Part shown: in pieces, positions 34,854 to 55,921 of the stretch
How the letters are laid out: every line of letters starts with the position of its first letter
How positions within the stretch are numbered: position 1 is the stretch's first letter
Assembly: GCF_025061645.1 (NCBI RefSeq)
Contig: NZ_JANYMP010000024.1
Coordinates: forward strand, 83,877-147,876
Direction of reading: 5' to 3'
Length of the DNA stretch: 64,000 bases
DNA from: Umezawaea endophytica
Lineage (GTDB): Bacteria > Actinomycetota > Actinomycetes > Mycobacteriales > Pseudonocardiaceae
Notes under the pieces: generated by a model
The model's input: only the letters and a program-made list of their open reading frames with translations
Database searches by the model: none
Told to the model about the DNA's origin: nothing
Program-made: the position numbers and the translations under genes

Positions 34854-35485
34854 CCGCGCAGGAAGGGCTAGCCACGGTGCGGGTGCTCGTGGTGGACGAC
34901 CATCCGGTCATCCGCGACGGTGTCCGAACAGGACTCGAGCGCGACGGCCGGGCGCTGGTCGTGGCCGAGGCCGCCGATGCCCGGACCGCGTGCAGGCTGG
35001 CCGAGCAGGTGCGCCCCGAGGTCGCCGTGGTCGACCTGCGACTGGACGCGGGCGGCCACGGTGTTGACGTGATCCGGTACCTGCACCTGCACCTGCCCAC
35101 CGCGAGGATTCTCGTGCTCTCCCAAGCGGGTCCGGCCGACATGGTGGCGGCGATCCGCGCGGGCGCGCACGGCTGCGTCAGCAAGGCGGCCACCTCCGCG
35201 GAGCTGGCGCGAGCCGTCGCGGACGTGCTCACCGGGCCCGTGCTGCCCGCCGAACTGGCCGCGCACCTGATCGGTGAACTGCGGCAGGAGAGCAGATCTC
35301 TCACCGCGCGCGAGCGGGAGGTGTTGCGCTGCCTGGCGAAGGGCTACGACAACCGCGAGATCGCCGACGACCTCGACATCACCGTGCGCACCGTCAACCG
35401 CCACCTGGAGAACATCCGCGGGAAGCTCGGCCACCGCCGCCGGTCCGAACTGATCCGCATCGCCCGCGCCCGCCACGACGGGTGA
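34850..35485 (+). CDS. LuxR/NarL-family response regulator
   Basis: A 211-residue regulator whose GTG overlaps the kinase stop (GTGA). The receiver has VVDDHP, phosphoacceptor VAVVDLRLD, Ser in place of Thr in VLSQAG and Lys in GCVSKAA. The GerE domain is LTAREREVLRCLAKGYDNREIADDLDITVRTVNRHLENI (about 150-190). The gene's 3' end is 16 bases from the convergent 3-hydroxyacyl-CoA dehydrogenase gene, so the biosynthetic operon ends here. Confidence 0.95.
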   Translation: MTAQEGLATVRVLVVDDHPVIRDGVRTGLERDGRALVVAEAADARTACRLAEQVRPEVAVVDLRLDAGGHGVDVIRYLHLHLPTARILVLSQAGPADMVAAIRAGAHGCVSKAATSAELARAVADVLTGPVLPAELAAHLIGELRQESRSLTAREREVLRCLAKGYDNREIADDLDITVRTVNRHLENIRGKLGHRRRSELIRIARARHDG

Positions 35486-35501: not shown

Positions 35502-36362
35502 TCAGGAGAGGACGCGGCCGCGCACCGAGACGTGGAACCCGTGGCCGGTCTTCTCGCCGAGCCGCCCGGCGGACACCAGTTCGGCGAGCAGCGGGGTCGG
35601 TCGGAACCGCGGGTCGCCGGTGAACTCCAGCAGCACCGCCAGGGTGTCGACGATGGTGTCCAGGCCGATCAGGTCGGCGGTGCGCAGCGGTCCCATCCGG
35701 TGCCCAAAGCACCGCTCGAACACCGCGTCCACCGTGGCGGCGTCGGCGGTGCCCTGCGCCAGCACGGCGGCCGCCTCGTTGACGGTGAGCATCAGCACCC
35801 GGTTGGACACGAACCCCGGTCCGTCGCCGACCACGATGGCCTCCTTGCCGAGGCGACCGAGCAGTTCCGTGGTGCGGCGCAGGGTGTCCGGGGAGGTGCG
35901 GGGGCCGCAAGCCACCTCGACGGTGTCCTTGAGCGGGGCGGGGTTCATGAAGTGGGTCCCGATCATCCGGCCGGGGTCGCCGATCCAGCGGGCGAGGTGG
36001 TCGATCGGGATCGCCGACGTGCAGGAGGCGAGCACGGCGTCGGGCGCGCTGTGCTCGTCGGCCGCGCGCAGCACCTGTTCCTTGAGCGGCAGTCGTTCCG
36101 GCACGCACTCGACCACGAACCCCGGTGACCCCAACAGCTCCCAGCGGTCGGTCCACCGGATGCGGCCCAGCACCTCGTCCGGGTCCGCGTCGGTACGGCG
36201 CAGCATCCGGGCCAGGCGCACCCCGTCGCGCACGCGCCGCGGCCCGGCTTCGCGCGCGGCGGCGGAGGGCTCGAACACCGCCACGGTGTGCCCCGCGGCG
36301 GCGAGGCACTGCGCGACACCGCAGCCCATCGTCCCGCCGCCGAGCACCGCGTAGTTCTCCAT
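35502..36362 (-). CDS. 3-hydroxyacyl-CoA dehydrogenase-like enzyme (FkbK type)
   Basis: The 286-residue protein has an N-terminal Rossmann fold with VLGGGTMGCGVAQCLAAAGHTVAVFEPS and a C-terminal helical dimerisation part with GHRMGPLRTADLIGLDT. The catalytic His/Glu pair lies in GTHFMNPAP and FVVECVPE. In hydroxymalonyl-ACP and methoxymalonyl-ACP pathways the FkbK-type enzyme oxidises the C3 hydroxyl of glyceryl-ACP to the aldehyde. The ATG at 36362 has GGGGAGG upstream; a start at 36401 that overlaps the preceding gene is less likely. It is the last gene of the operon. The neighbourhood identifies the function, not this sequence alone. Confidence 0.87.
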   Translation of the reverse strand: MENYAVLGGGTMGCGVAQCLAAAGHTVAVFEPSAAAREAGPRRVRDGVRLARMLRRTDADPDEVLGRIRWTDRWELLGSPGFVVECVPERLPLKEQVLRAADEHSAPDAVLASCTSAIPIDHLARWIGDPGRMIGTHFMNPAPLKDTVEVACGPRTSPDTLRRTTELLGRLGKEAIVVGDGPGFVSNRVLMLTVNEAAAVLAQGTADAATVDAVFERCFGHRMGPLRTADLIGLDTIVDTLAVLLEFTGDPRFRPTPLLAELVSAGRLGEKTGHGFHVSVRGRVLS

Positions 36363-36387
36363 CTCCGGTTCCTCCCCTGGGTCGCGG

Positions 36388-37419
36388 TCAGTGAACGGCA
36401 TCGGTGAGCACCCGGATGTGCGGGGAACGCGACACCAGCGCGCCCCGGTGCGCGAGCAGCACCCGGTCCCCGTCGTCGCGCTCCGCCTCGAAACCGCTGA
36501 ACCTCAACGTGACGAGCATGATCCGGTTGACCGGGGTGGGCACGAACTCCGCCATCGGCAGGAGCCCCGCCGCCAGCGACCGGCGCACGACCTGCTCGAT
36601 CAACGCCGCGCCCGCACCGCGCGAGGCCACGCGGCAGGAGGTGAGCAGCAGTTTCATCGTGGTGCTCGTGGCGTCCCGCTCGGTCACGGCCAGCCCGATG
36701 ACCCCGTACGGACCGAACCGGTCGGTCAGCTCGGCGACCAGCACCTCGTGGTCGGGTGAGGCGGACAGCCCGCGCAGGTCGACCTCGTCGAAGGTGAGGC
36801 CGGTGGTGTTGAGCTGGTGGGTGCGCACGGTGAGCTCGTGGGCCCTGGCCAGGTCACCGGCGGTGGCGCGGCGAACCACCATGGTGAGGTCGAGCGAGGC
36901 CAGGAACTCCGGCGCGGTGCCGTCGTGCTCCTGCTCCGCCGCCCGTCTGCCCGCCTCCACCTGGTACATCTGCCTGCGCCGGGCCGATTCCGCGGTTCGC
37001 GTCACCGGCCGGAACTCCGCCAGGTCCGGGAGCGAGCCCACCTCCTCGGCGGTGTACGCCCGGACGTCCGGCAGCGCCGCGACGACCTCGGCGCGTTCGA
37101 CCGGGTCGTTGTCGACGAAGGCGAAGCTGTCCAGGCCGAGGTTCAGCAGGTCCGCGACGCGGCGGACCGAGGCGGACTTGGCGCCCCAGCCGACCCGCAC
37201 CACCGTGAAGAGGTCTCGGAGGCCGAGGCGGTCGAGGTGCGCGACGGCGGTGGCCTCGTCACCGCGGCTGGCGACCGCGTGCAGGATGCCGCGTTCGTCG
37301 AGTTCCCGCAGCGTCCTGACGGCTTCCGGGAACGGCGCGGCCCGATCGCCCTCCAGCACCACCCCTCGCCACAGGGTGTCGTCGAGGTCCCAGACGAGGC
37401 ACTTCACCGGCCGGGTCAT
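36388..37419 (-). CDS. FkbH-like HAD-family glyceryl transferase/phosphatase
   Basis: The 343-residue protein has the HAD motif VWDLDDTLW (first Asp nucleophile), the second motif around VASRGDE and the acidic motif FAFVDNDPVERAE. The C-terminal half (about 190-343) is GNAT-like. FkbH proteins take 1,3-bisphosphoglycerate, dephosphorylate it and load a glyceryl group onto a discrete ACP. Both the ACP and the oxidising enzymes for the next steps are in the same operon. The ATG at 37419 overlaps the stop of the acyl-CoA dehydrogenase by four bases (ATGA). In tetronate pathways an FkbH homologue acts with an ACP and a KAS III-like enzyme. Confidence 0.92.
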   Translation of the reverse strand: MTRPVKCLVWDLDDTLWRGVVLEGDRAAPFPEAVRTLRELDERGILHAVASRGDEATAVAHLDRLGLRDLFTVVRVGWGAKSASVRRVADLLNLGLDSFAFVDNDPVERAEVVAALPDVRAYTAEEVGSLPDLAEFRPVTRTAESARRRQMYQVEAGRRAAEQEHDGTAPEFLASLDLTMVVRRATAGDLARAHELTVRTHQLNTTGLTFDEVDLRGLSASPDHEVLVAELTDRFGPYGVIGLAVTERDATSTTMKLLLTSCRVASRGAGAALIEQVVRRSLAAGLLPMAEFVPTPVNRIMLVTLRFSGFEAERDDGDRVLLAHRGALVSRSPHIRVLTDAVH

Positions 37420-38504
37420 GTCATCCCCCCAACCCTGTACTTGCGCAGCAGGTGATCGGCTATGTGCAGTTCGGACACCTGGTCGGAGCCCTCGATGATC
37501 TGCATGACCTTGGCGTCGCGGAAGAACCGGCCGACGCGGCTGTCCGACGCGCACCCGGCCGATCCGAGTAGCTGCACGGCGTCCTGGCTCGCCGAGGCGG
37601 CGGCCCGCGCGGCCGCGTACTTCGCCATGACCGTGCCGGCGACCGCGTCGAGCTCCCCAGCGTCGCGGGCACGGGCCGCGGCCACGCACAGCCCACGCGC
37701 CGCGGTGGCGTCCACCGCCATCCGGGCCAGCGTCGAACGCACCACCTGGTGCGCGGCCAGCGGGACGGCGGCCTGGCGTCGCCGCACGGTGTGCTCGGCC
37801 GCGTCCGCGACGCAGGCGGCGGCCATCCCGGCACAGCCCCACGCGACGGTGAAGCGGCCGTGGTCCAGCGCGGTCGCGGCCACGTGGGACAGGCCGAAAC
37901 CCGGTGACGCCACCAGGTTCCCCATCGGCACCCGCACCCCGTCGAAGCGGACGTGCGCGATCATCGCGGCGCGCAGGCCGAGCTGCCCGCGCACCGGGAC
38001 GGTGCTCACCCCCGGCCCCGCCTCCACCAGCACCGTTGCCAGGCGGCCGTCGAGCTTGCCCAGCACCAGGAACGCGGTGGCCTGCTGGCCGAACGTGACC
38101 CAGCGCTTCTCGCCCGTCACGGTGATCGCGCCGCCGGTCACCTCGAACCGGGTGTCCACAGCGGACAGTTCGGTGCCCGCACCCGATTCGGTCGCGGCGA
38201 ACCCGGCGAGGTGCTCCCCTGCGGCCAGCGCGGGCAACCAGGTCGAGCGCTGCTCGGCGGTGCCCCAGCGGGTGATCGCGGCGGACACCATGCCCTGCAC
38301 GGTGATCAGCGCGCGAACCGAGCCGCACACGGCGCCGATCTCGGCGCACAACTCGCCCAGTTCCGCCTGGGTACCGCCCTTACCGCCGTGCTCGGCAGGC
38401 AGGTCGACGCCGAACCACCCCGCCCGCGCGGCGGCTTCGCGCATCTCCAAGGGCAGCACGCCGCGCTCGTCCCAGCCGGAGGCGTCGAACTCGTCGGGTC
38501 GCAC
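37416..38504 (-). CDS. Acyl-CoA dehydrogenase-like flavoprotein (FkbI type)
   Basis: A 362-residue acyl-CoA dehydrogenase. FAATESGAGTELSAVDTRFEV is the FAD/substrate region, with TGEKRWVTFG just after it. The helical C-terminal domain has MQIIEGSDQVSELHIADHLLRK. In the hydroxymalonyl-ACP route the FkbI-type enzyme oxidises the aldehyde, formed from glyceryl-ACP by the FkbK enzyme, to hydroxymalonyl-ACP. The GTG start lies one base past the ACP stop. Relatives in other clusters act on acyl-ACPs rather than CoA thioesters. The presence of FkbH, FkbK and an ACP supports the assignment. Confidence 0.9.
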   Translation of the reverse strand: MRPDEFDASGWDERGVLPLEMREAAARAGWFGVDLPAEHGGKGGTQAELGELCAEIGAVCGSVRALITVQGMVSAAITRWGTAEQRSTWLPALAAGEHLAGFAATESGAGTELSAVDTRFEVTGGAITVTGEKRWVTFGQQATAFLVLGKLDGRLATVLVEAGPGVSTVPVRGQLGLRAAMIAHVRFDGVRVPMGNLVASPGFGLSHVAATALDHGRFTVAWGCAGMAAACVADAAEHTVRRRQAAVPLAAHQVVRSTLARMAVDATAARGLCVAAARARDAGELDAVAGTVMAKYAAARAAASASQDAVQLLGSAGCASDSRVGRFFRDAKVMQIIEGSDQVSELHIADHLLRKYRVGGMT

Positions 38505-38505
38505 C

Positions 38506-38760
38506 TCAGCCCGCCGTCTTGCCGAGCACGAACCCGGTCAGCCGGTTCACCGTGCGGAAGTTGTCCAGGTCCAGGTCCTCCACCCGCACGGTGATCCCGA
38601 ACCGGTGCTCCACGAAGGTCACCAGCTCCAGCGCGGCCAGCGAGTTGACCAGTCCCAGTTCGAAGTAGTCCTCGTCGGGGCCGGGCTCGGCATCGACCAG
38701 CGAGGTGACGAACGCCAGCAACTGGCCGCGCACCTCGTCGGCCGGGAGACCGTTCCGCAT
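38506..38760 (-). CDS. Discrete acyl carrier protein (FkbJ type)
   Basis: An 84-residue carrier protein. The phosphopantetheine Ser is in LGLVNSLAALEL, and the surrounding FGITVRVEDLDLDNFRTVNRL is the standard third-helix pattern. The ATG at 38760 has AGGAGG at the ideal distance. It is the expected carrier for glyceryl and hydroxymalonyl units made by the three enzymes downstream. The adjacent KAS III-like gene ends eight bases before it. Confidence 0.94.
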   Translation of the reverse strand: MRNGLPADEVRGQLLAFVTSLVDAEPGPDEDYFELGLVNSLAALELVTFVEHRFGITVRVEDLDLDNFRTVNRLTGFVLGKTAG

Positions 38761-38768
38761 CGTTCCTC

Positions 38769-39767
38769 CTACAGGTAGTGCGTTTCCGCTTCGCCGCCGC
38801 CGTGTTCGACGAGCAACAGGCTCCAGGCCGCGACCGGGCTGGCGTTGAACACGACCGCGCGCGACCCCGCTGGCAGTTCCCCCTCGGCGATGGCGGTGTA
38901 CAGGTTGAGCAGGACGTCGTTCGGCCCGAGATGGCCGTACGACGCGAGGTTCTTCGCGCACACCGGCGAGAGCCGGACGTCGAGCGCCTCCTCGGTGAAC
39001 CGGAACGCCCCGGCCGACAGGTTCTGGCTGACGTGGCAGGTCACGTCCGCCGCGGTCATCCCGTTGCGGTCCAGCAGCTCGCGGTACAGGTCACGCAGCC
39101 GCGTCCGGCCCTCCATCGCGAGCTGGAACGAGTACCGCCGCGGGTCGGCGCACTCCTCGCTCCAGTCCGCCTGGGCCCGATCCCGGAAGTCCACCGTGTA
39201 CAGGTCCCAGTAGTGGCCGTTGGTGGCCTGCGCGATGTCGAGCACCCGCACGGGCCCGGTCCTGGACAGCAGCACCGCCTGTCCCCCGTCGCCGCTGACG
39301 GTGACCGGGTGCCGGTACCGCCGCGGCGTGGGCGGCTTGCTCCCGTGCACGACCAGCACCTGGTCCAGCTCGGGATCGGCGGCCAGCAGGCCCCGTGCGG
39401 TGAGCAGGGCCGGGGTGAGCGAGACGCAGCCGAGGCCGCCCACCGAGAAGGTGAGCGCGTCGGTGAGGCCGAGCAGCGCCTGCAACCTGGTGGCCTCCGA
39501 GCTCATCAGCCGCTCGGGCGCGCGCGAGCCGATCACCAGCAGGGCGCCGGGGGTGGCCCCGGTCTCCGCCAGCAGCTTCCCGGCCGCGGTCGCCGCCAGT
39601 TCCACCGCGTCGTACCGCGGATCCGCGCGGACCCGGTCGATCCCCAGCCCGAGGCAGGCCTGCCGTCGGTCCTCCGACAGCTCGGCCAGTTCCGGCAGGT
39701 CGGACAGCTCCGTCACCCGGTCCGGCCGGAAGTCGGTGATCGCGCGCACCGCCAGTGGCGCGGTCAC
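38769..39767 (-). CDS. KAS III-like ketosynthase/acyltransferase
   Basis: The 332-residue protein has the thiolase fold of beta-ketoacyl-ACP synthase III. The active Cys is in GGLGCVSLTPA (about residue 114); the His is in TCHVSQNLSAG, a match to the HQAN region, and the last residue of the triad is Asn in AKNLASYGHLGPNDVLLNL. The GTG at 39767 overlaps the NRPS stop by four bases (GTGA). KAS III-like enzymes in secondary metabolism start chains, transfer acyl groups to sugars (CerJ type) or, in tetronate pathways, join a beta-keto thioester to glyceryl-ACP. Its place between the NRPS and the ACP suggests it acts on either. No thioesterase is present in the operon. Confidence 0.9.
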   Translation of the reverse strand: MTAPLAVRAITDFRPDRVTELSDLPELAELSEDRRQACLGLGIDRVRADPRYDAVELAATAAGKLLAETGATPGALLVIGSRAPERLMSSEATRLQALLGLTDALTFSVGGLGCVSLTPALLTARGLLAADPELDQVLVVHGSKPPTPRRYRHPVTVSGDGGQAVLLSRTGPVRVLDIAQATNGHYWDLYTVDFRDRAQADWSEECADPRRYSFQLAMEGRTRLRDLYRELLDRNGMTAADVTCHVSQNLSAGAFRFTEEALDVRLSPVCAKNLASYGHLGPNDVLLNLYTAIAEGELPAGSRAVVFNASPVAAWSLLLVEHGGGEAETHYL

Positions 39768-42700
39768 GCGCCCGCGCCCAGTTCGGCGAAGGCCTCGGCC
39801 ATCCGGTCGGCGAGCACCTCGGCCTCCTTCGCGCTGAACCGTCCACTGTGGATGACGCGGACCTCCGTCCGCCCGTCGACCACGCCGGTGGACAGCAGCA
39901 GCGGGTGCAGCTCCAGCAGGCTCGGCAGCGGCAGCGGGATCGGCGTCGACCGGATCGACAGCGGTCCGCCGAGCCGGATCGGGTGCATCCCGCTGGCCGT
40001 GTGCTCCACCAGCGCCACCGGCTCGGCCAGCGAGCGCAACTCCCGCACCGCGGGCGTCGGCGGGCTCAGCCTGCGCAGCATCCCGTAGCCGACGCCGTCG
40101 TTCGGCACCGAGCGCAGCACCTCGACGACCTCGGGCAGCGCGTCCGCGGCGTTCGTCGCCGGGTCGACCGGCAGGTGCACCGGGAACGCGTTGGTGAACC
40201 AGCCGACCGAGCGCGACCGGTCCTCCGGCCGGAACGGGTTCGGGGCACCGTGGCCGATGGTCGCCAGGTAGGCGCCCGGCTCGCCGCGCCAGCGGGACCA
40301 GCCGCAGGCCAGCGCGCACAGCGAGGCCTCCCGGCTGGACGGCCCCGGCGCCGAGAGCAGCGCCGCCAGGCGCTCGCCCTCCACCACCCTCACGACGACC
40401 CCCGGATCGCCCTCCACGCTCGCGGGCAGCGTCCCGGCGGCACCCCGGCGCAGCACGCTCGTCCAGTAGTCGCACTCGCCCGCCAGTTCGTCGCTCTGCG
40501 CCAGACCGCTCAGCAGCCGGGTCCAGTCCCGCCACGCCGCCGGCCGCACCGGCGCGGCACCGCCACCGGTCAGGGCCTCGTTGAGGTCCTCGAGCAGCGG
40601 CACGGTGGAGACCTCGTCGTGGACGAAGTGGTGCACCACCAGCAGCACCAGCCCGGAACGGCTGGCGCCCCGGTCGTAGTAGCGGGCCCGCAGCAGCGGC
40701 CCGCGCGCGAGGTCGAGGTCACCGACCAGCTCGACGGCGTCAGCGCTGAGCAGTGCCATTTCCTCGTCGTGGTCCATCAGCGGCAGCACCTTCGTGTCCA
40801 CAACGGACTCCGAACCGGCCTCGGCGATCTCGATCCGCCACCCGAGCCGGTTGCGGCGGAAGCGGTACCGCAGCGGCTCCTGCACCCGGACCAGTTCGGC
40901 GAACGCGGCCCGCAGCCGGTCGGGGCGCACACCCGGCGCGACCTCCAGCACCTCCGACACCACGAAGTCGGGCGCGCCCGGCGAGAACGGCTCGGCCGCG
41001 TCCAGCAGGTCCAGCATGAGCGGGGTGAGCGGGATCGGCCCGGTGTCCACGGCCGCAGCGGGCCGGTCCGCGGGTGGCACGGCGGGCGACGCGACGGCGG
41101 CCAGCTCGCGGAGGGTGGGGTACCGCAGCACGTCCTGCGCGGTGACCGACACGCCCGCCCGTGCCGCGCGGGCCGCGACCCCCACGCTCAGGATGGAATC
41201 GCCGCCGATGCGGAAGAAGTCCTCGTCGAGGCCGATGGACTCGCGACCGAGCAGGTCGGCCCAGATCCCGTGGAGGACCCGCTCGGTGTCGGTGGGCGTG
41301 CTCATCGAGTCTCCCTCGTCGCCGGTCAGCGCGGCGCGGTCGAGTTTTCCGTTGACAGTCCTCGGCAGCGTGCGGTGCCGCACGATCCGGGCGGGCACGA
41401 GGTGGTGCGGCAGCCGCGCGCGGAGTGCCGCGAGCAGCCGCCCGTCGTCCGGCAGCGCGCTCCCGGCGATGTGGGCCACCAGCCGCGGCACGACGGCACC
41501 GCGCCCGTCGGCGACCACCGCGGATTCCGCCACTCCGGGCTGGGCGGTCAGCACGCGTTCCACCTCGGCCGGTTCCACCCGGTGCCCGCGGATGGAGAGC
41601 TGGTCGTCCGCGCGGCCGTGGAAGGCGATCGTGCCGTCCGGGCGGACCGACGCGAGGTCCCCGGTGCGGTACATCCGGGAGCCCACGGCACCGAACGGGT
41701 CCGGCACGTACCGCGCGGCCGTCAGCCCTGGCATTCCGTGATAGCCGCGGCCGACCTGGCTTCCACCGAGGTACAACTCCCCCACCACGCCGACCGGCAC
41801 CGGCTCCGCGCGGGAGTCGAGCACGTGGGCGGTGGTCCCGGTGAGCGGACGGCCGAGCACCGGCAGCTCCGCGCCCGTGGAGGCCACCGGGCCGCACACG
41901 GTGAGGACCGTGCACTCGGTGGGGCCGTACAGGTTCAGCATCCGGTACGGGGCGTCCGCCGGGGGCCGGGCGCGCAGCCGGTCGCCGCCCGCCCCGAGCA
42001 CCCGGAGCCGGGGTAGGTGCGGTCGCTCGGCGATGAGGAGTTCCGCCAGCGCGGTGGGCATGGCCGCCACGGTGATGCCGTCCTCGGTCAACGAGCGGGC
42101 CAGCTCGGCGGGCGTGCTCAACACGTCGGGGACGAAGTGCACGGTGGCGCCGTGCACCAGCGCGGAGAGCACCTCCATGATCGCGCCGTCGAAGCCGGGG
42201 GCGTAGAACTGGGCCACCCGGTCCTGTTCGGACAGACCGACTTCCCCGCCGTAGCGGCGCAGGAGGTGGAGCAGGCTCCGGTGCTCGATGTCGCAGCCGT
42301 GCGGACGCCCGGTGGACCCGGAGGTGTGCACCACGTACGCCAGGTTGCGACTCGTCGCACCGCCGGGGAACGCCAGAGGCCCGTCGACGGCTTCGCCGGG
42401 GGCCAGCACCGGCCTCGTCCCGGCGTCGATCCCGACGTCCGCGACCACCACCGGCGGGTCGAGCGACTCGACGATCCCGTCCCGCCGCGCGGCGGGCACG
42501 ACCGGGTCGACGGGCGCGAAGGCGGCTCCCGCGCCGAGCACGCCGAGCCAGGCGATGACCAGCCCCGCTCCCCGGCCGGTGATCACGGGCACCGCGACCT
42601 CGGGCCCGGCGCCCGCGGCGACCAACCGGCGGGACAGCGCCGCCGCCGCGCGGACGATCTCGCGGTAGGTGTGACCACCGTCCCGGTCGACCACCGCGAG

Positions 42701-46399: not shown

Positions 46400-46407
46400 C
46401 CCCCGCC

Positions 46408-49400
46408 TCACAGTTCGTGGTCCACGGTCGCCCGCGACTCCGCGCCGACCCGTTTCGCCATCGCCTCGATGGTCGGGTGGTCGAGCAGCACCGCCACCGG
46501 CAGTTCGGTCCGGCCGAGCCGGGCGAACTCGCCCGCGAGCTGGACCAGCGTCAGCGAGGACCCGCCCGCCTCGAAGAATCTCTCCCTGACCCCGATCTCC
46601 TCCCGGCCGAGCACGGCGGCCCAGGCGCGGGCCACCAGCCGTTCGGTCTCGGTGCGCGGGGCCAGGTGTTCGCCGCCGTGCACGGTGCCCGCGCGGGGCA
46701 GCCTCGCCCGGTCGACCTTGCCCCGCGAGGTCAGCGGTATCCGGTCGATCGTGCTGAACTCGGTGGGCAGCAGTTGCTCGGGCAGGATCGCCGCGAGGTG
46801 CTCCCTCAGTTCACCGGCCGACGGGCCGGGGCGGTGGTGCGGCACGACCGAGGCCGTCAGCCGCCGGGCCGCCCCCTCCCCCGTTGCCGCCACCGCCGCC
46901 TCGCGGACGCCCGGATGCCGCAGCAGCGCCGCTTCGACCTCTCCCGGCTCGATCCGCACCCCGCGCACCTTCACCTGGCCGTCCGCGCGGCCGACGAAGG
47001 ACAGCGTCCCGTCCGAGGACCAGCGGGCCAGATCGCCCGTGCGGTAGAGCCGTGCTCCCGGCTCGCCGAAGGGGTCGGCCACGAAGCTCGCCGCGGTCGC
47101 GCCGGGCCGGGCGTGGTAGCCGCGGGCGAGTCCGGGACCGCCGAGGTGGATCTCACCTACCGCGCCCAGCGGAACCGGCCGCAGCGCCGAGTCCAGCAGG
47201 TGCACCACCGCGCCCTCGATCGGCGTGCCGATCGGAGGACTGTCCACTCCGGACAGCGGTGGGCTCATGGTCGCGCAGATGGTGGCCTCGGTCGGACCGT
47301 AGGAATTGAACAACCGGCGCCCGGTCGACCAGCGGGCCGCCAGCCGCGGTGGGAACACCTCACCACCGCAGACCACGGTGATGTCCGGTGGCCACGAGTC
47401 GACGGGCAGCACCGCCAGCACCGACGGCGTCATCATCACGTGGGTCACCCCACCGGCGACCACCACGTCCACCAGGTCGGTGACGGGGGTACCCCGCGGC
47501 ACGAGCACCTGGGTGGCCCCGTTGAACAGCCCGGTGAGCAGTTCCAGGATCGAGGCGTCGAACGCGGGGGAAAGCCAGTGCAGCACCCGGCTGCGCCGGT
47601 CGACGCCGAGCGTCCGGCGCATCGAGGCCGCGAGCACCGCCAAACCGCGGTGCGGCACCACCACCGCCTTCGGCCGCCCGGTGGTGCCCGAGGTGTAGAT
47701 CAGGAAGGCCGCGTCGTCGAGCCGGGACGCGCGGTCGAGCACCGGACCGCCGTCCAGCCGCAGCTCGTCCACCCGCAGCTCCGGCAGGTCCGCGGGCGTG
47801 AACGAGCCCGCCGAGCCCCGGTCGGTCAGCACCACGGCCGCGTTCGCGTCCTCGGCCAGCCACCGGAGTCGTTCCCGCGGCTGGGCCGGGTCCAGCGGCA
47901 GGCAGGTGCCGCCCGCCTGGAGAACGGCCAGCATCGCGGTGATCGAGTCCACCCCGCGGTCGAGGCAGACGCCCACCACGGACTCGGGGCCGACGCCCAG
48001 CGCGCCGAGCCGGTGCGCCAGCCTGCCCGCCCGGTCGTCCAGCTCGCGGAAGGTGAGTTCGGTGCCCGCCGACACCGCCACCGCGTCCGGCACCCGGCGC
48101 ACCTGGTCGGCGAACAGCTCCGCGGCGGTCCGCGGCCGGGCGGGCTCCAGCGGCGAGCGGCTCCAGGTGCCGATCAGCTCCAGTTCCTCGGGCGGCAGCA
48201 CCGCGACCGAACGCAGTGGCCGGTCCGGCGCGTCGACCATCGAGGACAACGCGGTGACCAGCCGGGCGGACAGCCGCTCGGCCGTGACGTCGTCGAACAG
48301 GTCCACGTCGTAGACCAGCTCGAAGCACAGCGCCGACTCGGGCAGCACGACCAGGCCGAGCGGGAAGTTGGTCGTCTCGGCGCTGTCGACCTCCACCACC
48401 CGCGGTCCGTTCCCATCACCGGCGAACGGCTCCTCGGCGTAGTTCTCGAAGGCGATGGCGCTGTCGAACAGGTTCACGCCCGGCGGGACCTCGGTGAACT
48501 CCTGGTAGCGGGCGGCCGGGAAGAACCCGTGCTCACGGGCGTCGAGCTGCCCGTCCTGGATCCGCGAGAGCCAGTCGAGCACCGTGGCGCCCGGATCGAC
48601 GGCGAGCCGCACCGGCAGGGTGTTGATCAGGGGGCCGAAGATCGTCTCGACGCCGGGGAGTTCGGGCGGGCGGAGGGTGACGGTGGTGCCGAAGACCACG
48701 TCCTCCAGCTCGTGCGCGCCGCCGTGCCGGGACAGCAGCAACCCCCAGGCCGCCTGGACGATGGTGTGCACCGTCAGCCGGTGCTGGCGGGCGAACTCCC
48801 GCAGCCCGGCGGTGCGCTCTTCGGTGAGCCGGAAGGCCTTCTTCGCCACCCGCCGGGTGAGGTGGCCCGGTGCGGGCCGCCGGTCGAACGGCAGCGGGGT
48901 CGGCTCGCGCACACCGTCGAGCACCTTGGCCCAGTAGGCCGACGCGGCGTCGTGGTCCTGCGCCGAGAGCCAGTCGCAGTAGTCCCGGAACGGCCGCTGG
49001 GGCGGCAGGTCGGGCGTCGCGCCCCGGCTCAGCGCCACCGTGGCGGCGGCGACGCCGGAGACCAGGCGCGCGATGCTCCAGCCGTCGATGAACAGGTGGT
49101 GCGTGGTCAGCAGCACCCGCACCTGGCCGTGGGGCAGGCGAGCGACGGCCAGCCGGGTCGGCGGGTCGGCGGCGAGGTCGACGCCGTCGGCCTGGTCGCG
49201 GTCCCGCAGGCGCCGCACCTCGTCCCGACGCTGCTCCGCGGAGAGCGCGCGCCAGTCGTACCGGGTCACCGGCAGCTCCGTGCCCCGGTGCACCACCTGC
49301 ACGGGCTCGGGCAGGCCCGCCCAGTGCACGGTGGTGCGCAGCGCGGGCGCCGCGGCGGCCACCAGCCGCCACGCGGCGACGTACGCGTCCAGGTCGGTCA

Positions 49401-52400
49401 CCCCGTCGACGACCAGCTCGATCCGGCGGACGTAGACGTCCTCGGCGCCGCCCGCCAGCGCGTGGAACAGCATCCCGGCCTGGATCGGGGTGAGCCGGTA
49501 GACGTCCTCCACCGCCCGCCCGTCCCCCACCAGCTCGTCCACCGCGAACTGGTCGAGGCGGGCCAGCGGGAAGTCCGAGGGAGTGCGGCCGCCCGCGCCC
49601 TCGGCCAGGCAGTGCTCGACGATCTCCCGCAGCGCGGCCGCGGCGCGTTCGGCCAGTCGGCGCACGGTGGCCCCGGACAGGGTGGCGGGGCTGTAGTCCC
49701 AGTGCAGCACCAGTTCCCCGGCCACCACGACCGCGGTGACCTCCAGCGGGAACGGCCGCACCTCGTCGGGGTGCGGGCCGTCGGCGACCGGCAACTCTCG
49801 CAGGTACAGCTCGTTGGCCGAGTCGGCGAACCGGCCGAGGTAGTTGACGTTGATCTCCGCGCCGTGGCCGCCGTCGAGCGACTGCGTGCCGGACAGGTGG
49901 CGCAGCGCGTCGTAGCCCTGCCCGCGGCCGGGGATCTCGCGGAGCTGTTCCTTGACGGACCTCAGCACCGCCCGCCAGTCCCTGGTCCGCGGCAGGTCGA
50001 GCGCCACGGGGAACTGCGTGGTGAACCAGCCGACGGTCCGGGACGGATCGGCCTGGCCGACCAGTTGCTCCCGGCCGTGGCTCTCCAGGTTCACCAGCAC
50101 CCGGTCCTGGCCCGTCCACTCGGCCACCGCCACCGACAGCGCGCTGAGCAGCACGTCGTTCGCCTGGGTCCGGTAGACGCCGGGCACCTGGCGCAGCAGC
50201 GCGGTGGTCTCCCCGGCGGTCAGCCGGACGGTGAGGGTCTCGGCACGTCCGTCCACTCCGGACCCGTCCAGCGGCAGCGGCGGCGCGGTGCGCTCGTGCA
50301 CCCGTTCCCAGTAAGGCAGTTCGTGGTCGAGCGCGCCCGCCGTCGCCTGGTCGCGGAGCAACCGGGACCAGCGCTGGAACGAGGTCGTCCGCGGCCCCAG
50401 GTCGACCGCGGCACCGGACGCCGCCTGGGCGCAGGCGGTGCGGAGGTCCTCCAGCAGGATGCGCCACGAGACGCCGTCGACGACGAAGTGGTGCACGGTC
50501 AGCAGCAGCCTCGGCGGCCGTGCCGCGCCGAGGTCGAAGTAGTCGGCCAGCAGCAGCGGTCCCTCGGCGAGGTCGAGGTCGGCACGGGCGGTGTCGACCC
50601 GCCACGCGAGTTCGGCGTCCGCGTCGTCCACTTCGGACAGGTCGTGGACCCGGAACACCGGAGCGGTTTCGGCGGCGGGGATGTGCTGCCGCCACTCCCC
50701 GTCCTGTCTGCGGACGCGGGTGCGCAGCGCGTCGTGGTGCTCGACCAGCGCTCGGACCGCGGTGCGTACCGCGTCCCGCTCGACCTCCGGGGCGAGTTCG
50801 AGGTACCGGGACATGGTGAACTGCTCCGGGTGGACGGTGAACAGGTCGAGGAACCACCGCTGGATCGGCGTGAGGTCCACCTCGCCCGAGACGGGACCGT
50901 TCTCCACCGCCTCCGCGACGCGTTCGACGGAGAGACCCGCCGCGAGGTCGGCCACCGTCTGCCGTTCGAACACCTCGCGCGAGGACAGCCGCAGACCGGC
51001 CCGGTTGGCAGCCGCGGCCACCCGGATGCTCAGGATCGAGTCGCCGCCCAGTTCGAAGAAGTTGTCGTCGACGCCGACGCGCTCCACGCCGAGCACCTCG
51101 CCGAACACCCGCGCGAGCAGGGACTCACCGGGGGTGCGGGGAGCGCGGTACTCGGTCCCGGACCTCGCCTCCGGTGCGGGCAGTGCCCGCTGGTCAAGCT
51201 TCCCGTTCACGGTCAACGGCACCTCGTCGATCGCGACGAACACCGAGGGCACCATGAACCCCGGCAGCACCAGAGCGGTGTGCCGCCGCAACTCCTCGGC
51301 CGCCGGGACCGTGGCGCCGCTGCCCGCCACCACGTAGGCGATCAGCCGTCCACCGCGATCGGCGACCACCGCCGCCTCGGTGATCGCGGGGTGCCGGGAC
51401 AGCACCGCCTCGATCTCGGCGGGCTCCACCCGGAAGCCCCGCGTCTTGACCTGGCGATCGACCCGGCCGCGGAACTCCAGGGCCCCGTTCGCCAGGCGGC
51501 GGGCCAGGTCCCCGGTGCGGTACATCCGGGCACCGGGAGGGCCGAACGGATCGGCCACGAACCTCTCGGCGGTCAGGCCGGGACGTCCGAGGTACCCGCG
51601 GCCCACTCCCGAGCCACCGAGGTACAGCTCGCCCTCGACACCCGGCGGCACCGGGCGCAGGTACCTGTCGAGCACGTGGGCCCGGTTGCCCGCGATGGGC
51701 GTGCCGATCGGCATCGAGGCACCTGGCCCCGGATCAGCGGCACGGGGCAGCACCAGACCGGTGGCGTGCAGGGTGGTCTCAGCAGGGCCGTAGAAATTGG
51801 CGAAACCGGCGTGCGGCAGCCACCTGCGGGCCAGGTCGGCCGGGCACAGCTCGCCGCCCGCGACCACCAGCTCCACCCCCGGCACCGACTTCGGGTCCAC
51901 TATGGACAGCAAGGCGGGCGGCAGTGCGAGCAGGGTGATCCGGTCGCGGCGGACCTGTTCTTCCAGCGTCAGCGTGCCGTCCCGCTCCCCCGCCTCGCTC
52001 AGGCAGACGGTCGCCCCGGACAGCAAGGGCGTCAGCACCTGGAACAGCCCGAAGTCGAAGGTGACCGGCGAGTGCAGCAGCATCCGCGTGCCGGGGCCGA
52101 CAGCGAGGTTGACCCGCATGTCCGCGACGCAGTTGACCAGCGAGCCGTGCCGGACCATCACCGACTTCGGTACGCCGGTGGAGCCCGAGGTGTACTCGAC
52201 GTAGGCCAGGTTGTCCGGCCGCGGAACGACTTCCCGACGCCGAGGCGCGACCGGCTGGTCGCCGTCCACCCGGATCACGGACGTCCCGGCGGGCAGCCGG
52301 TCCACACCCGCCGCGTCCGCGAGCACCGGGGACGCGCCGGAATCGGCCAGCAGGGAAGCGATGCGGTCCGCGGGGTGCTCCGGGTCGATCGGCACCAGCG

Positions 52401-55400
52401 TCCCACCCGCCTTGAGCACCGCGAGCAGGCTCACGACCAGGTCCACCCCGCGCGGCAGGCAAACACCCACCAGGGTTTCCGCGCCCACACCGCATTCGGC
52501 CAGTCGGTCGGCGAGCGCTTCCACCCGTCGGGCCAACTGCCCGTAGGTCAGCTCGATCGCTCCGGCCACCGCGACCTCGGCGTGGTGACGACGGACGACC
52601 TCGGCGAACAGGACCGGCGCCACCGGCAGCGACGGCCCGGCGGCGGGCTCGTGCACCACCGGCGCGGCCTGCGTCATCGTCCGCAGTGGACGGTCCGGTT
52701 CCTGGGTAACGGCCGAGAGCACGTCGACGAGCTGCGCGGTGTGCCGTTCGACGGTGCTCGCGTTGTAGAGGTCGGTGCTGTAGGTGACGACGATCCGCAA
52801 CCGGTCGCCGATCAGCCGGAACTCGGTGACGAGGTCGAAGGTCGCCGTGGTGATCGGCAGGTCGACCTCCTCGGCGGACAGTCCGGGGAAGTCGCGCTGC
52901 CGGGCCGGTGCGTTCTGCAACACCACCATGGTCCGGACCAGCGGAAGGCCGGTGAGGTCCCGTTTCGGCGCGAGCGCCTTGACCACCTGCTCGAACGGCA
53001 CGTCCGCGTGGTCCATCGCCTCCAGGACCGTTTCCCGCGTGTCCGCCACCAGATCGGCGAAACCCAGCTCCTCGTCCACGGTCGACCTGATCACCAGGGT
53101 GCCGACGAAGAACCCGGCCACGCCCGCGACCTCGGCCTGTCCCCGCCCGGACTCCACGGTGCCGACCGCCACGTCCTGGTCACCCGCAATCCGGGAGTGC
53201 ACCAACTGGCAGGCAGTGAGCAGCGTGGTGAACAGCGTGACCCGCCGCGCCCTGGCGAACTCGACCACACGTGCGGTCACCTCGGCCGAGAGGTGGACCT
53301 CGTGCGCCGCGCCCGCCATCGAACGGCGGGCGGGCCGAGGACGGTCCGCGGGCAGCTCGAACGGCCGCAGCCCCGCGAGCTTCCCACGCCAGAAGGAGAG
53401 CTGCCGCTCCTCGACCTCGGGCGTGAGCCGTTCCCGTTGCCAGCGGGCGAAGTCCGCGTACCGCAGGGGCAACGGCGCGAGCCGGGACGGGTCTCCCGAG
53501 ACTGCGGCGCGGTAAAGCTCCGCCAACTCGGACAACAGGATCTCGTTGGTCCAGTCGTCGGTCAGCAGGTGGTGCATGATGACCACCAGCACGTGGTCCC
53601 GCTGCCCCAACCGCGCCAGCACCAGCCGCAACGGTGGTCGTTCCGCCAGGTCGAAGACGACGGCGATTTCGGTGCGCAGCAGGGCATCGAGCGCCGCGTG
53701 CTGATCGGGCAGATCAACCGGTTCAAGTTCCACCGGAGCCGACGGGTGTACCACCTGCACCGGCTCGTCCCCCTGGACGTGAAAACTCGTGCGGAGGATC
53801 TCGTGCCGCTCCACCAGCGCGGTCAACGCCGACCGCAGCGCTCCCACATCCAGATCACCCCGCAACCTCAAGGCCTTGGGGAGGTTGTGCTCCGCACCAG
53901 GCGAATGCGTGTGCAGGAACCAGAGCCGCCGCTGAGCGAAAGACAGGGGTAACTGGTCCTCCGACCCGACGTCTCGAACCCGCACCCCGGCGTCCGGAAG
54001 CGTCGGCGACACCGCAAGCTCAGCCACCGTCGGCCGATCGAACAGCGCCCGATAGGGCCACACCACCCCCAACCGCGCCCTGGCCAGCGCGGCCACCTGG
54101 ATGCCAAGGATGGAATCCCCGCCCAGGTCGAAGAAGTTGTCGTCGACCCCGACCCGCTCGACCTCCAGCACCTCCCGCCAGATCCCCACCAGCACCCGTT
54201 CCGCCTCCGTGCGCGGCTCGGTGACGGCGGGCACCTGCGGCGGCGGGGGCAGCGCCCGACGGTCGACCTTGCCACCGGGCAACGTCGGAAACCGTTCCAG
54301 CGCAACGAACGCCGTCGGCACCAGGTGTTCCGGCAACCTGGCAGCGAGGAAGTCGCGTAACTCCTCCCTCGCGGGTGTCCGCCCACCCGCCGGGACGAAG
54401 TACCCGACCAACCTCCGACGGCCCGGCTCCTCGGGCACACCCACCACCGCCCGCTCCACCGCGGCATGACGAGCGAGCACACCCTCGACCTCAGCGGGCT
54501 CGATCCGAAAGCCCCGAACCTTGAGCTGGTCGTCCGACCGTCCCAGGTGCTCCAGGACACCGTCATCCCGACGCCTGACCAGGTCCCCGGTCCGGTACAT
54601 GGTCCGACCAGGCACGAACGGGTCGGCCACGAAGCGGGACGCCGTCAGCCCTGGCCGCCCGTGGTAACCACGCGAGACACCGTCCCCACCGATGTACAAC
54701 TCCCCCACCGCGACCGGCTCCAAGCGGTCGTCCAGCACGTGGAGCACAGTCCCAGGAATCGGCCGTCCGATCGGCACGAACGCCACCTCACGCCAGGACT
54801 CCACCGCCCCCAACTCCAGCCGGAACACACAGGAGTCCGCCGTGGTCTCCGTAGTCCCGAAGGCGTTCACCAACTCGGTCCCCGGCCCCAACAGCGCCAG
54901 CAAATCCCGACCGTCCTGCGCGGGCCACGCCTCGGCACCGACCGACAACAACTCCAACGGCGGCGCACCACCCCGCCGTACAGCCTCCCGACCCAACGCC
55001 TTCGCCAGTGACGGCAACATCTCCAACGCCGTCCCACCAGTGCGTTCGACGAGATCGAGCAGCAGCACCGGATCGGTGATCGCCTCCTGCGGCGCCAGAA
55101 CCATCGTCCCGCCGCGCAAAGCGGACCGCGCGAAGTCGGCGAAGAACAGATCGGTGGTGAAGCTGGTGATCGAGACGAACCGCAGCGGCCGCTCAAGCAG
55201 GCGGTACAGCTCCGCCCAGACGTCGCACACGTAGGCCAACTGGCGGTGCTCGACGGTGACACCCTTCGGCCTGCCGGTAGATCCCGAGGTGTACATGACG
55301 TAGGCGGCCGACGCCGGATCAACCCAACGCTCCGGCAGCACCGGAACCGACTCGTCCACCTCGGCCCGCACCACCACACGGTCCCCAAAACCGCCCGACA

Positions 55401-55731
55401 ACGACGAATCCGACACCACCACCCGCGCGCCCGAGTCGTCGAGCACCCACCGCAGCCGCTCGGCGGGCTGAGCAACGTCCAACGGCACAAAAGCAGCCCC
55501 GGCTCGCAACACGGCGAGCAGCCCGACCACCATCGCCGGACCACGCTCCAGGTGCAGCGCCACCACCACTCCCGGCCCGGCACCGCTTTCGACCAGCGCC
55601 CACGCCAACCGCGCCGACCCGGCGTCCAGGTCCGCGAAGGTCAGGCTGGTCTCACCGCAGACCACCGCAACGGCATCCGGCGTACGGGAAGCCTGAGCAG
55701 CGAACAACTCGATCACCGTCGGTCTCCGCAT
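46408..55731 (-). CDS. Non-ribosomal peptide synthetase: A-PCP, C-A-PCP-E, C-A-PCP
   Basis: A 3107-residue NRPS. Loading module: A1 (about 10-490) and PCP1 (LGGDSI, Ser about 540). Module 2: LCL condensation (HHLLTDDWT, about 718), A2 (about 1040-1520), PCP2 (Ser about 1563) and an epimerase with HHFVVDGVSW and ESHGRE (about 1745 and beyond). Module 3: DCL condensation (THHLFIDGWS, about 2209), A3 (about 2520-3000) and PCP3 (GGSSL, Ser about 3058). The DCL type after the E domain is consistent. Substrate pockets by eye: A1 has Thr instead of the usual Asp (SFTTDLFF), A2 has FDFGLF and NFYGPAE, A3 has FDASILE and NSYGPTE. Substrates are not assignable with confidence. The ATG at 55731 has GGAGGG upstream. 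Its stop overlaps the next gene. Confidence 0.94.
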   Translation of the reverse strand: MRRPTVIELFAAQASRTPDAVAVVCGETSLTFADLDAGSARLAWALVESGAGPGVVVALHLERGPAMVVGLLAVLRAGAAFVPLDVAQPAERLRWVLDDSGARVVVSDSSLSGGFGDRVVVRAEVDESVPVLPERWVDPASAAYVMYTSGSTGRPKGVTVEHRQLAYVCDVWAELYRLLERPLRFVSITSFTTDLFFADFARSALRGGTMVLAPQEAITDPVLLLDLVERTGGTALEMLPSLAKALGREAVRRGGAPPLELLSVGAEAWPAQDGRDLLALLGPGTELVNAFGTTETTADSCVFRLELGAVESWREVAFVPIGRPIPGTVLHVLDDRLEPVAVGELYIGGDGVSRGYHGRPGLTASRFVADPFVPGRTMYRTGDLVRRRDDGVLEHLGRSDDQLKVRGFRIEPAEVEGVLARHAAVERAVVGVPEEPGRRRLVGYFVPAGGRTPAREELRDFLAARLPEHLVPTAFVALERFPTLPGGKVDRRALPPPPQVPAVTEPRTEAERVLVGIWREVLEVERVGVDDNFFDLGGDSILGIQVAALARARLGVVWPYRALFDRPTVAELAVSPTLPDAGVRVRDVGSEDQLPLSFAQRRLWFLHTHSPGAEHNLPKALRLRGDLDVGALRSALTALVERHEILRTSFHVQGDEPVQVVHPSAPVELEPVDLPDQHAALDALLRTEIAVVFDLAERPPLRLVLARLGQRDHVLVVIMHHLLTDDWTNEILLSELAELYRAAVSGDPSRLAPLPLRYADFARWQRERLTPEVEERQLSFWRGKLAGLRPFELPADRPRPARRSMAGAAHEVHLSAEVTARVVEFARARRVTLFTTLLTACQLVHSRIAGDQDVAVGTVESGRGQAEVAGVAGFFVGTLVIRSTVDEELGFADLVADTRETVLEAMDHADVPFEQVVKALAPKRDLTGLPLVRTMVVLQNAPARQRDFPGLSAEEVDLPITTATFDLVTEFRLIGDRLRIVVTYSTDLYNASTVERHTAQLVDVLSAVTQEPDRPLRTMTQAAPVVHEPAAGPSLPVAPVLFAEVVRRHHAEVAVAGAIELTYGQLARRVEALADRLAECGVGAETLVGVCLPRGVDLVVSLLAVLKAGGTLVPIDPEHPADRIASLLADSGASPVLADAAGVDRLPAGTSVIRVDGDQPVAPRRREVVPRPDNLAYVEYTSGSTGVPKSVMVRHGSLVNCVADMRVNLAVGPGTRMLLHSPVTFDFGLFQVLTPLLSGATVCLSEAGERDGTLTLEEQVRRDRITLLALPPALLSIVDPKSVPGVELVVAGGELCPADLARRWLPHAGFANFYGPAETTLHATGLVLPRAADPGPGASMPIGTPIAGNRAHVLDRYLRPVPPGVEGELYLGGSGVGRGYLGRPGLTAERFVADPFGPPGARMYRTGDLARRLANGALEFRGRVDRQVKTRGFRVEPAEIEAVLSRHPAITEAAVVADRGGRLIAYVVAGSGATVPAAEELRRHTALVLPGFMVPSVFVAIDEVPLTVNGKLDQRALPAPEARSGTEYRAPRTPGESLLARVFGEVLGVERVGVDDNFFELGGDSILSIRVAAAANRAGLRLSSREVFERQTVADLAAGLSVERVAEAVENGPVSGEVDLTPIQRWFLDLFTVHPEQFTMSRYLELAPEVERDAVRTAVRALVEHHDALRTRVRRQDGEWRQHIPAAETAPVFRVHDLSEVDDADAELAWRVDTARADLDLAEGPLLLADYFDLGAARPPRLLLTVHHFVVDGVSWRILLEDLRTACAQAASGAAVDLGPRTTSFQRWSRLLRDQATAGALDHELPYWERVHERTAPPLPLDGSGVDGRAETLTVRLTAGETTALLRQVPGVYRTQANDVLLSALSVAVAEWTGQDRVLVNLESHGREQLVGQADPSRTVGWFTTQFPVALDLPRTRDWRAVLRSVKEQLREIPGRGQGYDALRHLSGTQSLDGGHGAEINVNYLGRFADSANELYLRELPVADGPHPDEVRPFPLEVTAVVVAGELVLHWDYSPATLSGATVRRLAERAAAALREIVEHCLAEGAGGRTPSDFPLARLDQFAVDELVGDGRAVEDVYRLTPIQAGMLFHALAGGAEDVYVRRIELVVDGVTDLDAYVAAWRLVAAAAPALRTTVHWAGLPEPVQVVHRGTELPVTRYDWRALSAEQRRDEVRRLRDRDQADGVDLAADPPTRLAVARLPHGQVRVLLTTHHLFIDGWSIARLVSGVAAATVALSRGATPDLPPQRPFRDYCDWLSAQDHDAASAYWAKVLDGVREPTPLPFDRRPAPGHLTRRVAKKAFRLTEERTAGLREFARQHRLTVHTIVQAAWGLLLSRHGGAHELEDVVFGTTVTLRPPELPGVETIFGPLINTLPVRLAVDPGATVLDWLSRIQDGQLDAREHGFFPAARYQEFTEVPPGVNLFDSAIAFENYAEEPFAGDGNGPRVVEVDSAETTNFPLGLVVLPESALCFELVYDVDLFDDVTAERLSARLVTALSSMVDAPDRPLRSVAVLPPEELELIGTWSRSPLEPARPRTAAELFADQVRRVPDAVAVSAGTELTFRELDDRAGRLAHRLGALGVGPESVVGVCLDRGVDSITAMLAVLQAGGTCLPLDPAQPRERLRWLAEDANAAVVLTDRGSAGSFTPADLPELRVDELRLDGGPVLDRASRLDDAAFLIYTSGTTGRPKAVVVPHRGLAVLAASMRRTLGVDRRSRVLHWLSPAFDASILELLTGLFNGATQVLVPRGTPVTDLVDVVVAGGVTHVMMTPSVLAVLPVDSWPPDITVVCGGEVFPPRLAARWSTGRRLFNSYGPTEATICATMSPPLSGVDSPPIGTPIEGAVVHLLDSALRPVPLGAVGEIHLGGPGLARGYHARPGATAASFVADPFGEPGARLYRTGDLARWSSDGTLSFVGRADGQVKVRGVRIEPGEVEAALLRHPGVREAAVAATGEGAARRLTASVVPHHRPGPSAGELREHLAAILPEQLLPTEFSTIDRIPLTSRGKVDRARLPRAGTVHGGEHLAPRTETERLVARAWAAVLGREEIGVRERFFEAGGSSLTLVQLAGEFARLGRTELPVAVLLDHPTIEAMAKRVGAESRATVDHEL

Positions 55732-55770
55732 CAGCCCTCCGGTCGTCCGCTGGTCGAAGAAGATCAGCTT

Positions 55771-55793
55771 GGCGATCCGCTCTCTAGATCGCC
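55771..55793. promoter_or_regulatory. Inverted repeat upstream of the NRPS operon
   Basis: GGCGATC-N9-GATCGCC lies 40-62 bases upstream of the first NRPS start. It could be an operator for the operon or for the divergent SGNH hydrolase gene. No regulator gene is adjacent. Confidence 0.45.
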
Positions 55794-55921
55794 TATACGT
55801 TCGGGTCCGGCGGTGAGGTTCCCCGTCAGATCCGCGACCGTGTCAGAGCCGTGTCAGTCCCCTGTGAGCGGCAGCCACGAGCCTTCGCCCGTCGCACCAC
55901 CACGGACAACGGAGGCAGAAG

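Follow-up and report, generated by a model that had tools for sequence, protein, structure and literature searches.

A KAS III-like protein as candidate loader of hydroxymalonyl in an acyltransferase-less NRPS-PKS operon of Umezawaea endophytica

Background

In the biosynthesis of zwittermicin by a hybrid of nonribosomal peptide synthetase (NRPS) and polyketide synthase (PKS), hydroxymalonyl bound to an acyl carrier protein (ACP) is made by FkbH-type, dehydrogenase and ACP proteins (PMC4207774, PMC6395733; papers are cited throughout for excerpted passages), and the unit is transferred by the acyltransferase (AT) domain of ZmaA, whose active site reads GYSFG (PMC4207774). The window analysed here, a stretch of 64,000 nucleotides of Umezawaea endophytica (bases 83877-147876 of the 167,575-base contig NZ_JANYMP010000024.1, here C24, in an 11.0-Mb genome), carries at positions 35502-55731 an NRPS-PKS operon with a comparable set of genes. 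Unlike the zwittermicin system, it has an AT relic and encodes a protein resembling 3-ketoacyl-ACP synthase III (KAS III). We propose that this KAS III-like protein probably moves hydroxymalonyl from a discrete ACP to the ACP of the PKS module, acting as a trans-acyltransferase of ketosynthase (KS) III fold.

The acyltransferases ChlB3 (chlorothricin) and CerJ (cervimycin) share with the operon protein the KAS III fold, the Cys-His-Asp triad, its spacing and an ACP-linked substrate, but the groups that they move are 6-methylsalicyl or malonyl, for the making of aromatic esters (PMC9573744), whereas the task proposed here is extender loading in a modular PKS. The glycerate operon of tetronate pathways (Mad7/8/16) likewise brings FkbH, ACP and FabH-like proteins together; the window differs in adding FkbI and FkbK and an NRPS-PKS context, and its relatives have a release domain of their own. 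The Agg and Rk proteins are further examples of glycerate utilisation in tetronate formation. Judged by Pfam families, with the Agg sequences outside the comparison, none of the seven operon proteins is an Agg4/Agg5-type acyltransferase or eliminating enzyme. A figure legend on hybrid clusters of Saccharothrix espanaensis lists, within secondary-metabolite clusters, both hydroxymalonyl-ACP genes and FabH-like ks III genes, but the excerpt gives no role for the FabH-like protein (PMC3469384). Foxicin was considered as a parallel and set aside, as its excerpted description combines an FkbH domain with a thioesterase (TE) and modules that do have an AT. Searches of an open-licence literature library brought up no paper in which a KAS III-like protein loads extender units; since subscription journals and MIBiG lay outside that scope, a prior description may exist.

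Results and discussion

An AT-less module with an intact ketosynthase

The seven genes appear to make up a complete hybrid NRPS-PKS assembly line whose single PKS module lacks an AT. Seven open reading frames (ORFs) follow one another on the minus strand in the order N1, N2, KAS III-like, ACP, FkbI, FkbH and FkbK (Table 1), with intergenic gaps of -4, -4, +8, +1, -4 and +25 bases. The last gap presumes an FkbK start at 36362, behind AGGGGAGGAACCGG; the start at 36401 chosen in an earlier sequence-only reading of this DNA gives an overlap with FkbH. That reading had described a complete-looking one-strand operon of seven genes without functional AT, ketoreductase (KR) or TE, and the analysis bears this out: the ORFs lie where it placed them, and Pfam finds no AT, KR, methyltransferase or TE family in the seven proteins; for the two large proteins, NCBIfam matches were considered up to 25 families. 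Its module content also stood, but it overlooked an epimerisation (E) domain in N1, the divergent E-like end of N2 (E') and the AT relic.

By Pfam and NCBIfam, N1 contains three adenylation (A), three condensation-type and three carrier domains, and N2 contains a KS, two carrier, two condensation-type and one A domain. The motifs HHFVVDGVS, NLESHGREQ and NYLG, typical of epimerisation domains, identify one of the condensation-type domains of N1 as such a domain. The idea of an unusual starter, taken up by a loading A domain lacking the substrate-pocket Asp, was dropped, as alignment shows that Asp in all three A domains of N1. FkbH, ACP, FkbI and FkbK stand together as expected of a hydroxymalonyl-ACP cassette, with no O-methyltransferase among the seven genes and no space between them for a further one, as the earlier reading had it and as Pfam and NCBIfam agree; the unmethylated hydroxymalonyl is thus the likely unit.

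Between the KS and ACP of N2, about 177 residues align to AT domains, with GSGTG in place of GHSxG. Of 54 aligned relics (those of the window and of 53 related loci), 53 have Gly at the Ser site and one has a gap there, and GHSxG, GYSxG and GQSxG occur in none of them. The AT family PF00698 is matched neither in N2 nor in the KS proteins of eight distant and four close relatives. The KS catalytic residues are kept, with Cys in 69/69 rows and the two His in 69/69 and 68/69 (the window and 68 loci).

As in trans-AT PKSs, the KS module lacks a functional AT and loading would occur in trans; unlike in those systems, no discrete FabD-fold AT is encoded on contig C24, and the proposed loader has another fold. 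The sequence-only reading had named an AT or TE just outside the window as a finding that would speak against it. Over the whole 167.6-kb contig, neither PF00698 nor the TE family PF00975 has a match; the 66 AT and 27 TE matches of the genome all lie elsewhere. The AT profile picks up three short AT genes of this genome (FabD-type or discrete) at 76, 100 and 123 bits, which makes its silence at loci with a KAS III-like gene informative.

The relic shows that decay has occurred. As an alternative, the discrete ACP might feed the KS directly, with the KAS III-like protein shifting the elongated chain to the module ACP or being inessential, or the module might be dead. We judge this very unlikely: neither the ORFs nor the KS residues are damaged and another genome carries a copy at 89-93% nucleotide identity, so that the operon looks functional, and the catalytic residues of the KAS III-like family are invariant.

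The KAS III-like protein and AT-less modules in relatives

To place the operon among its relatives, KAS III-like homologues were located at 144 places among 84,980 species genomes, and the best 80 of these loci were analysed, each judged on the stretch examined (for 16 loci, less than 20.9 kb). FkbH is found at 61 loci, FkbH with FkbI and ACP at 60, a KS at 65 and an NRPS A or condensation domain at 77, and an AT relic is recognisable in 53 of the 65 KS-bearing loci. No AT of 40 bits or more occurs at any of the 80 loci in the stretch examined; two weak matches, of 22 and 25 bits, fall in L122 and L123. No KS was seen in the stretch for 15 loci; at four Rhodococcus loci among these, a KS with relic and no AT lies about 13 kb further. 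The sequence-only reading knew of no described cluster with this exact gene order. At 10 of the 80 loci, however, N2 and the five genes behind it stand in the same order, and the operon is thus a member of a family spread over many actinomycetes rather than unique.

Within the order, 13 of 298 genomes encode KAS III-like relatives. In 15 neighbourhoods, FkbH was present in 12 stretches; FkbI and ACP were seen in G014, FkbK, ACP and a weak FkbI match in G076, and no cassette gene in G204. Across loci, the identities of the KAS III-like proteins correlate with those of FkbI (Spearman 0.86), FkbK (0.85), FkbH (0.74) and KS (0.69), a level judged no higher than that of the cassette and KS genes among themselves (0.71-0.80). 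The genome itself has a second locus, C3:99358-101222 (L043), with a distant KAS III-like protein (39% identity) beside FkbH, FkbI, ACP and FkbK; its KS-ACP-thioester reductase protein has no AT.

FkbH as bait: AT and KAS III-like protein tend to exclude each other

As a control independent of the KAS III-like gene, FkbH was used as bait in 200 genomes of the order, which gave 50 places in 27 genomes, 26 of them with a complete cassette (FkbH, FkbI, ACP and FkbK). Eight cassettes have a KAS III-like gene; a KS lies in the stretch for seven of these, and an AT in 0/7. The gene is missing from the other 18. A KS lies in the stretch for 14 of them, 13 of these having an intact AT whose aligned active site reads GHSxG or GYSxG, and four show neither KS nor AT in the stretch examined. 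A strict GHSxG pattern had given 11/14; it overlooked GYSxG and, in at least two proteins, picked up a stray GQSLG. Reading the aligned site gave 13/14. Fisher's test on 0/7 against 13/14 gives p = 6.9e-5, with kinship uncorrected and the KAS III-positive stretches mostly the longer ones.

The AT carries GYSxG in seven of the 13 AT-bearing cassettes without a KAS III-like gene, and no such AT lies near a cassette with one. ATs that take ACP-bound units (ZmaA, ZmaF) read GYSxG (PMC4207774). Hydroxymalonyl thus seems to be loaded in alternative ways, by a GYSxG AT, in the PKS or separate, or by the KAS III-like protein. At L184, L187 and on a Kibdelosporangium contig, AT and KS are encoded separately and the AT adjoins the cassette.

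A second sample of 198 genomes of the phylum contained eight with FkbH and 10 new places. One KAS III-positive cassette (L223) has no AT and runs into a contig end, with FkbK not seen; one KAS III-negative cassette (L217) is accompanied by ATs, with KS not seen. The direction agrees with that of the first sample, with too few cassettes for a test. L223 (G335), from a 2.6-Mb genome of the same phylum outside the class of U. endophytica, comprises ACP, FkbI, KAS III-like and FkbH genes and NRPS pieces.

The module could also be loaded by an AT from elsewhere, such as a discrete AT of FabD or other type, which would leave the KAS III-like protein a different role, for instance in priming or editing. 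Short AT matches on C2, C7, C16 and C21, among the 66 of the genome, would provide candidates, and the Kibdelosporangium contig bears both an AT and a KAS III-like gene. Against this, a dedicated cassette makes an ACP-bound unit, the ATs known for such units read GYSxG (PMC4207774), and an AT from elsewhere would hardly explain why GYSxG ATs lie near seven KAS III-less cassettes and zero KAS III-bearing ones. We therefore consider supply by a distant AT improbable.

Active site and fold of the KAS III-like protein

The family assignment of the protein is weak, with Pfam matches of 20.9-24.6 bits (both below the gathering score) and an NCBIfam match to PRK06840 of 65.6 bits. Residues C114, N249, H279 and D284 are invariant in 96/96 rows of the family alignment, at least five of which repeat a contig present in both sets. 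The triad of ChlB3 is C113/H296/D301, with matching residues in CerJ (PMC9573744). The spacing from His to Asp (H+5) is identical in ChlB3 and the KAS III-like family, and the ChlB3 sequence GHLGASD aligns to GHLGAMD of the family. In the profile alignment, the catalytic His of FabH falls on Q248 and its Asn on H279. The protein accordingly has the Cys-His-Asp triad of KS III-fold acyltransferases, with His in place of the FabH Asn. The Cys-His-Asn triad of FabH is absent: the window has C114, Q248 and H279, and Asn stands at position 279 in 0/96 rows.

The AlphaFold model (pLDDT 92.4) has the KAS III (thiolase) fold, and ChlB3, DpsC and FabH are among its Foldseek matches at about equal TM scores of 0.7-0.8. 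Identity to ChlB3 is about 20%. In the profile search, FabH (84.1 and 78.5 bits) ranks above ChlB3 (74.6 bits) and CerJ (34.9 bits); common ancestry may lie with the ChlB3/CerJ subgroup or with FabH. As DpsC is a condensing enzyme and some FabH proteins outscore ChlB3, sequence alone leaves transfer and condensation undecided.

FkbH with a KAS III-like neighbour and without FkbI and FkbK occurs at L173 and L179. These were considered as possible tetronate loci and rejected, the neighbours of L179 (a MetRS-like protein, an N-monooxygenase and an ATP-grasp protein) indicating another system. In L179 (5000-12500), and likewise in L173, the FkbH and KAS III-like genes lie beside genes for these MetRS-like, N-monooxygenase-like and ATP-grasp-like proteins, with no KS; the set perhaps serves glyceryl transfer in a different pathway. 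The KAS III-like protein of L179 also carries the Cys-His-Asp residues, and the triad alone thus does not name the reaction.

Tetronate pathways suggest a condensing role, in which the KAS III-like protein would join the peptidyl chain to glyceryl- or hydroxymalonyl-ACP, forming a C-C bond and releasing the product. FkbH, ACP and a FabH-like protein make up the tetronate glycerate set, where ring formation and chain release fall to the FabH-like protein (PMC7489565); DpsC shows that related enzymes can condense (PMC9573744); the contig has no TE, and the KAS III-like gene directly follows the gene of the terminal module. Several observations speak for transfer instead. FkbI and FkbK are present, which makes a glyceryl-only, tetronate-like use unlikely, and by Pfam none of the seven genes is a homologue of the further tetronate genes. 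The KS residues are intact, so that a second condensing enzyme would be superfluous. A thioester-reductase domain (PF07993) stands behind the ACP in seven of eight distant KS proteins and provides release there, yet the KAS III-like gene is kept, also at the C3 locus of the same genome, which points to another task. A condensing role would, moreover, leave unexplained why AT is absent wherever the KAS III-like gene occurs, and we regard such a role as unlikely. Together with the exclusion of AT, these points lead us to prefer transfer.

Proposed loading route and points against it

From the gene content, the AT relic, the triad, the modelled fold and the co-occurrence, together with family knowledge, we infer the following route. 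FkbH would place glyceryl from a glycolytic bisphosphate on the discrete ACP, and FkbK and FkbI would oxidise glyceryl-ACP to hydroxymalonyl-ACP. The KAS III-like protein would take the hydroxymalonyl onto Cys114, aided by His279 and Asp284, and hand it on to the module ACP behind the KS, in place of the AT that has been lost. The sequence-only reading had offered no explanation for the absence of an AT and had given the KAS III-like protein no part in it; the relatives indicate instead that the protein stands in for the AT.

A number of observations weigh against hydroxymalonyl loading by the KAS III-like protein. Its own 11-Mb genome has discrete ATs elsewhere that could serve in trans, and co-occurrence is a different thing from activity. 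Position 248, the site of the catalytic His of FabH, is His in 15/96 rows, and DpsC, a condensing enzyme, has a related site (PMC9573744). FkbH was not seen in the stretch for 19 of the 80 loci, and L087 shows no KS in the stretch examined. The contig of G197 (= L056), cut off within an NRPS gene, carries the KAS III-like gene and the cassette but shows no KS. L155 has an AT lacking the Ser, with no intact AT and no KAS III-like gene in the 19 kb examined. Finally, in Kibdelosporangium persicum (L199 and L065, on one contig) an AT-less KS protein and a discrete AT beside FkbK are followed about 16 kb further by a KAS III-like gene.

On that contig, the AT-less KS, the discrete AT, a full cassette and the KAS III-like gene all lie within about 24 kb; it may be a stage halfway from one way of loading to the other, or a pair of adjacent clusters. 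The genome of L155 encodes a KAS III-like protein on another contig.

Chain release and predicted product

By collinearity, N1 would deliver a tripeptidyl chain, the KS would condense hydroxymalonyl with it to leave an internal unreduced 2-hydroxy-3-oxo unit, and the last NRPS module would add one residue. A plausible product on this collinear basis, in line with the four-residue peptide predicted by the sequence-only reading, thus has three residues (the second in D configuration), the unreduced 2-hydroxy-3-oxo unit and one more residue.

The E-like terminal domain of N2 bears on this prediction. NYLG is absent from 23/23 E' domains and present in 12/12 canonical E domains of the same alignment; the His pair of HHxxxDxx[SA] is kept in 17/23, with Asn for the first His in 6/23, and the Glu of EGHG is kept in 12/23 and lost in the window. 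The N2 domain therefore lacks the combination of NYLG and HHxxxDxxS that marks epimerisation domains. Its function may be release or cyclisation, and in the window's subfamily it is the candidate for release; as a guess, release could occur by attack of the hydroxymalonyl alpha-hydroxyl on the last thioester.

Extent of the unit and neighbouring genes

Among the best 80 of the 144 relatives, Umezawaea tangerina is the closest by operon. Compared in two pieces, it matches the window at 93.1% nucleotide identity over 35517-49767 and 88.6% over 51835-55813, and its flanks differ, similarity stopping at both block ends. With this copy set in different flanks and nothing trusted shared outside, the seven genes look like the whole biosynthetic unit. 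Flanking genes were tried as cluster members by comparing the flanks of eight related clusters all against all; this returned NRPS and FkbK pieces and antisense noise, with one weak three-genome family, and the idea was rejected.

Outside the conserved block, a GDSL lipase/esterase gene (55922-57109, plus strand) is divergent from N1 at about 190 bases. Genes for a histidine-kinase-like protein and a LuxR-type response regulator (33699-35485, plus strand) converge with the operon end, and a 181-residue protein with a ricin-type beta-trefoil lectin domain is encoded at 31775-32320 (minus strand). Further NRPS condensation domains lie at 16343-48583 in the coordinates of contig C24, a contig without any TE match.

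Table 1 Features of the operon, in window positions (A, adenylation; C, condensation; T, carrier domain; aa, amino acids)
Feature	Position	Strand	Evidence
N1, NRPS, 3107 aa, A1-T-C-A2-T-E-C-A3-T (loading module and two more)	46408..55731	-	Pfam/NCBIfam; E by motifs
N2, hybrid PKS-NRPS, 2215 aa, KS-[AT relic]-ACP-C-A4-T-E'	39764..46411	-	Pfam/NCBIfam; no PF00698
KS domain of N2; Cys, His, His intact (DTACSGS, EAHGSGT, NFGH)	45152..46390	-	Pfam and alignment
AT relic of N2, ~177 aa; GSGTG at GHSxG position	44396..44926	-	alignment to AT
Module ACP of N2, behind AT relic; putative hydroxymalonyl acceptor	44177..44368	-	PF00550, N2 residues 682-745
E', divergent E-like C-terminal domain of N2 (TIGHG, no NYLG)	39767..41044	-	motif alignment
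KAS III-like protein, 332 aa; C114, Q248, N249, H279, D284; proposed hydroxymalonyl-ACP:ACP acyltransferase	38769..39767	-	profiles, alignments, model
Discrete ACP (FkbJ-like), 84 aa; proposed glyceryl/hydroxymalonyl carrier	38506..38760	-	PF00550, 38.9 bits
FkbI-like acyl-CoA/ACP dehydrogenase	37416..38504	-	Pfam/NCBIfam
FkbH-like glyceryl-ACP synthase (HAD-type, DLDDT)	36388..37419	-	TIGR01686, 246 bits (cut-off 146.65)
FkbK-like 3-hydroxyacyl-CoA dehydrogenase	35502..36362 (alternative start 36401)	-	Pfam/NCBIfam
Block collinear with Umezawaea tangerina	35517..55813	-	nucleotide comparison of two pieces

Conclusions

The operon combines known kinds of component, namely a KS III-fold acyltransferase type, a hydroxymalonyl cassette and an AT-less module. 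We advance only tentatively the possibility that it stands for a class of PKS modules in which the AT has been displaced by a KS III-fold acyltransferase for ACP-bound extenders, leaving a relic lacking the Ser, as a third loading mode beside cis-AT and FabD-fold trans-AT; in the window's subfamily the assembly line would, moreover, have neither TE nor reductase at its end, where an E-derived domain that has lost the epimerase motif may release the chain.

If the KAS III-like protein does load the module, software that relies on finding AT domains would misread a family of at least 144 loci as broken or trans-AT, and the building block of those loci would be predictable as hydroxymalonyl. One more enzyme fold would join the small set known for extender loading, and a new tool for placing hydroxylated units in polyketides would be at hand. 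The family would also offer a test case for a displaced essential domain whose relic persists as a scaffold.

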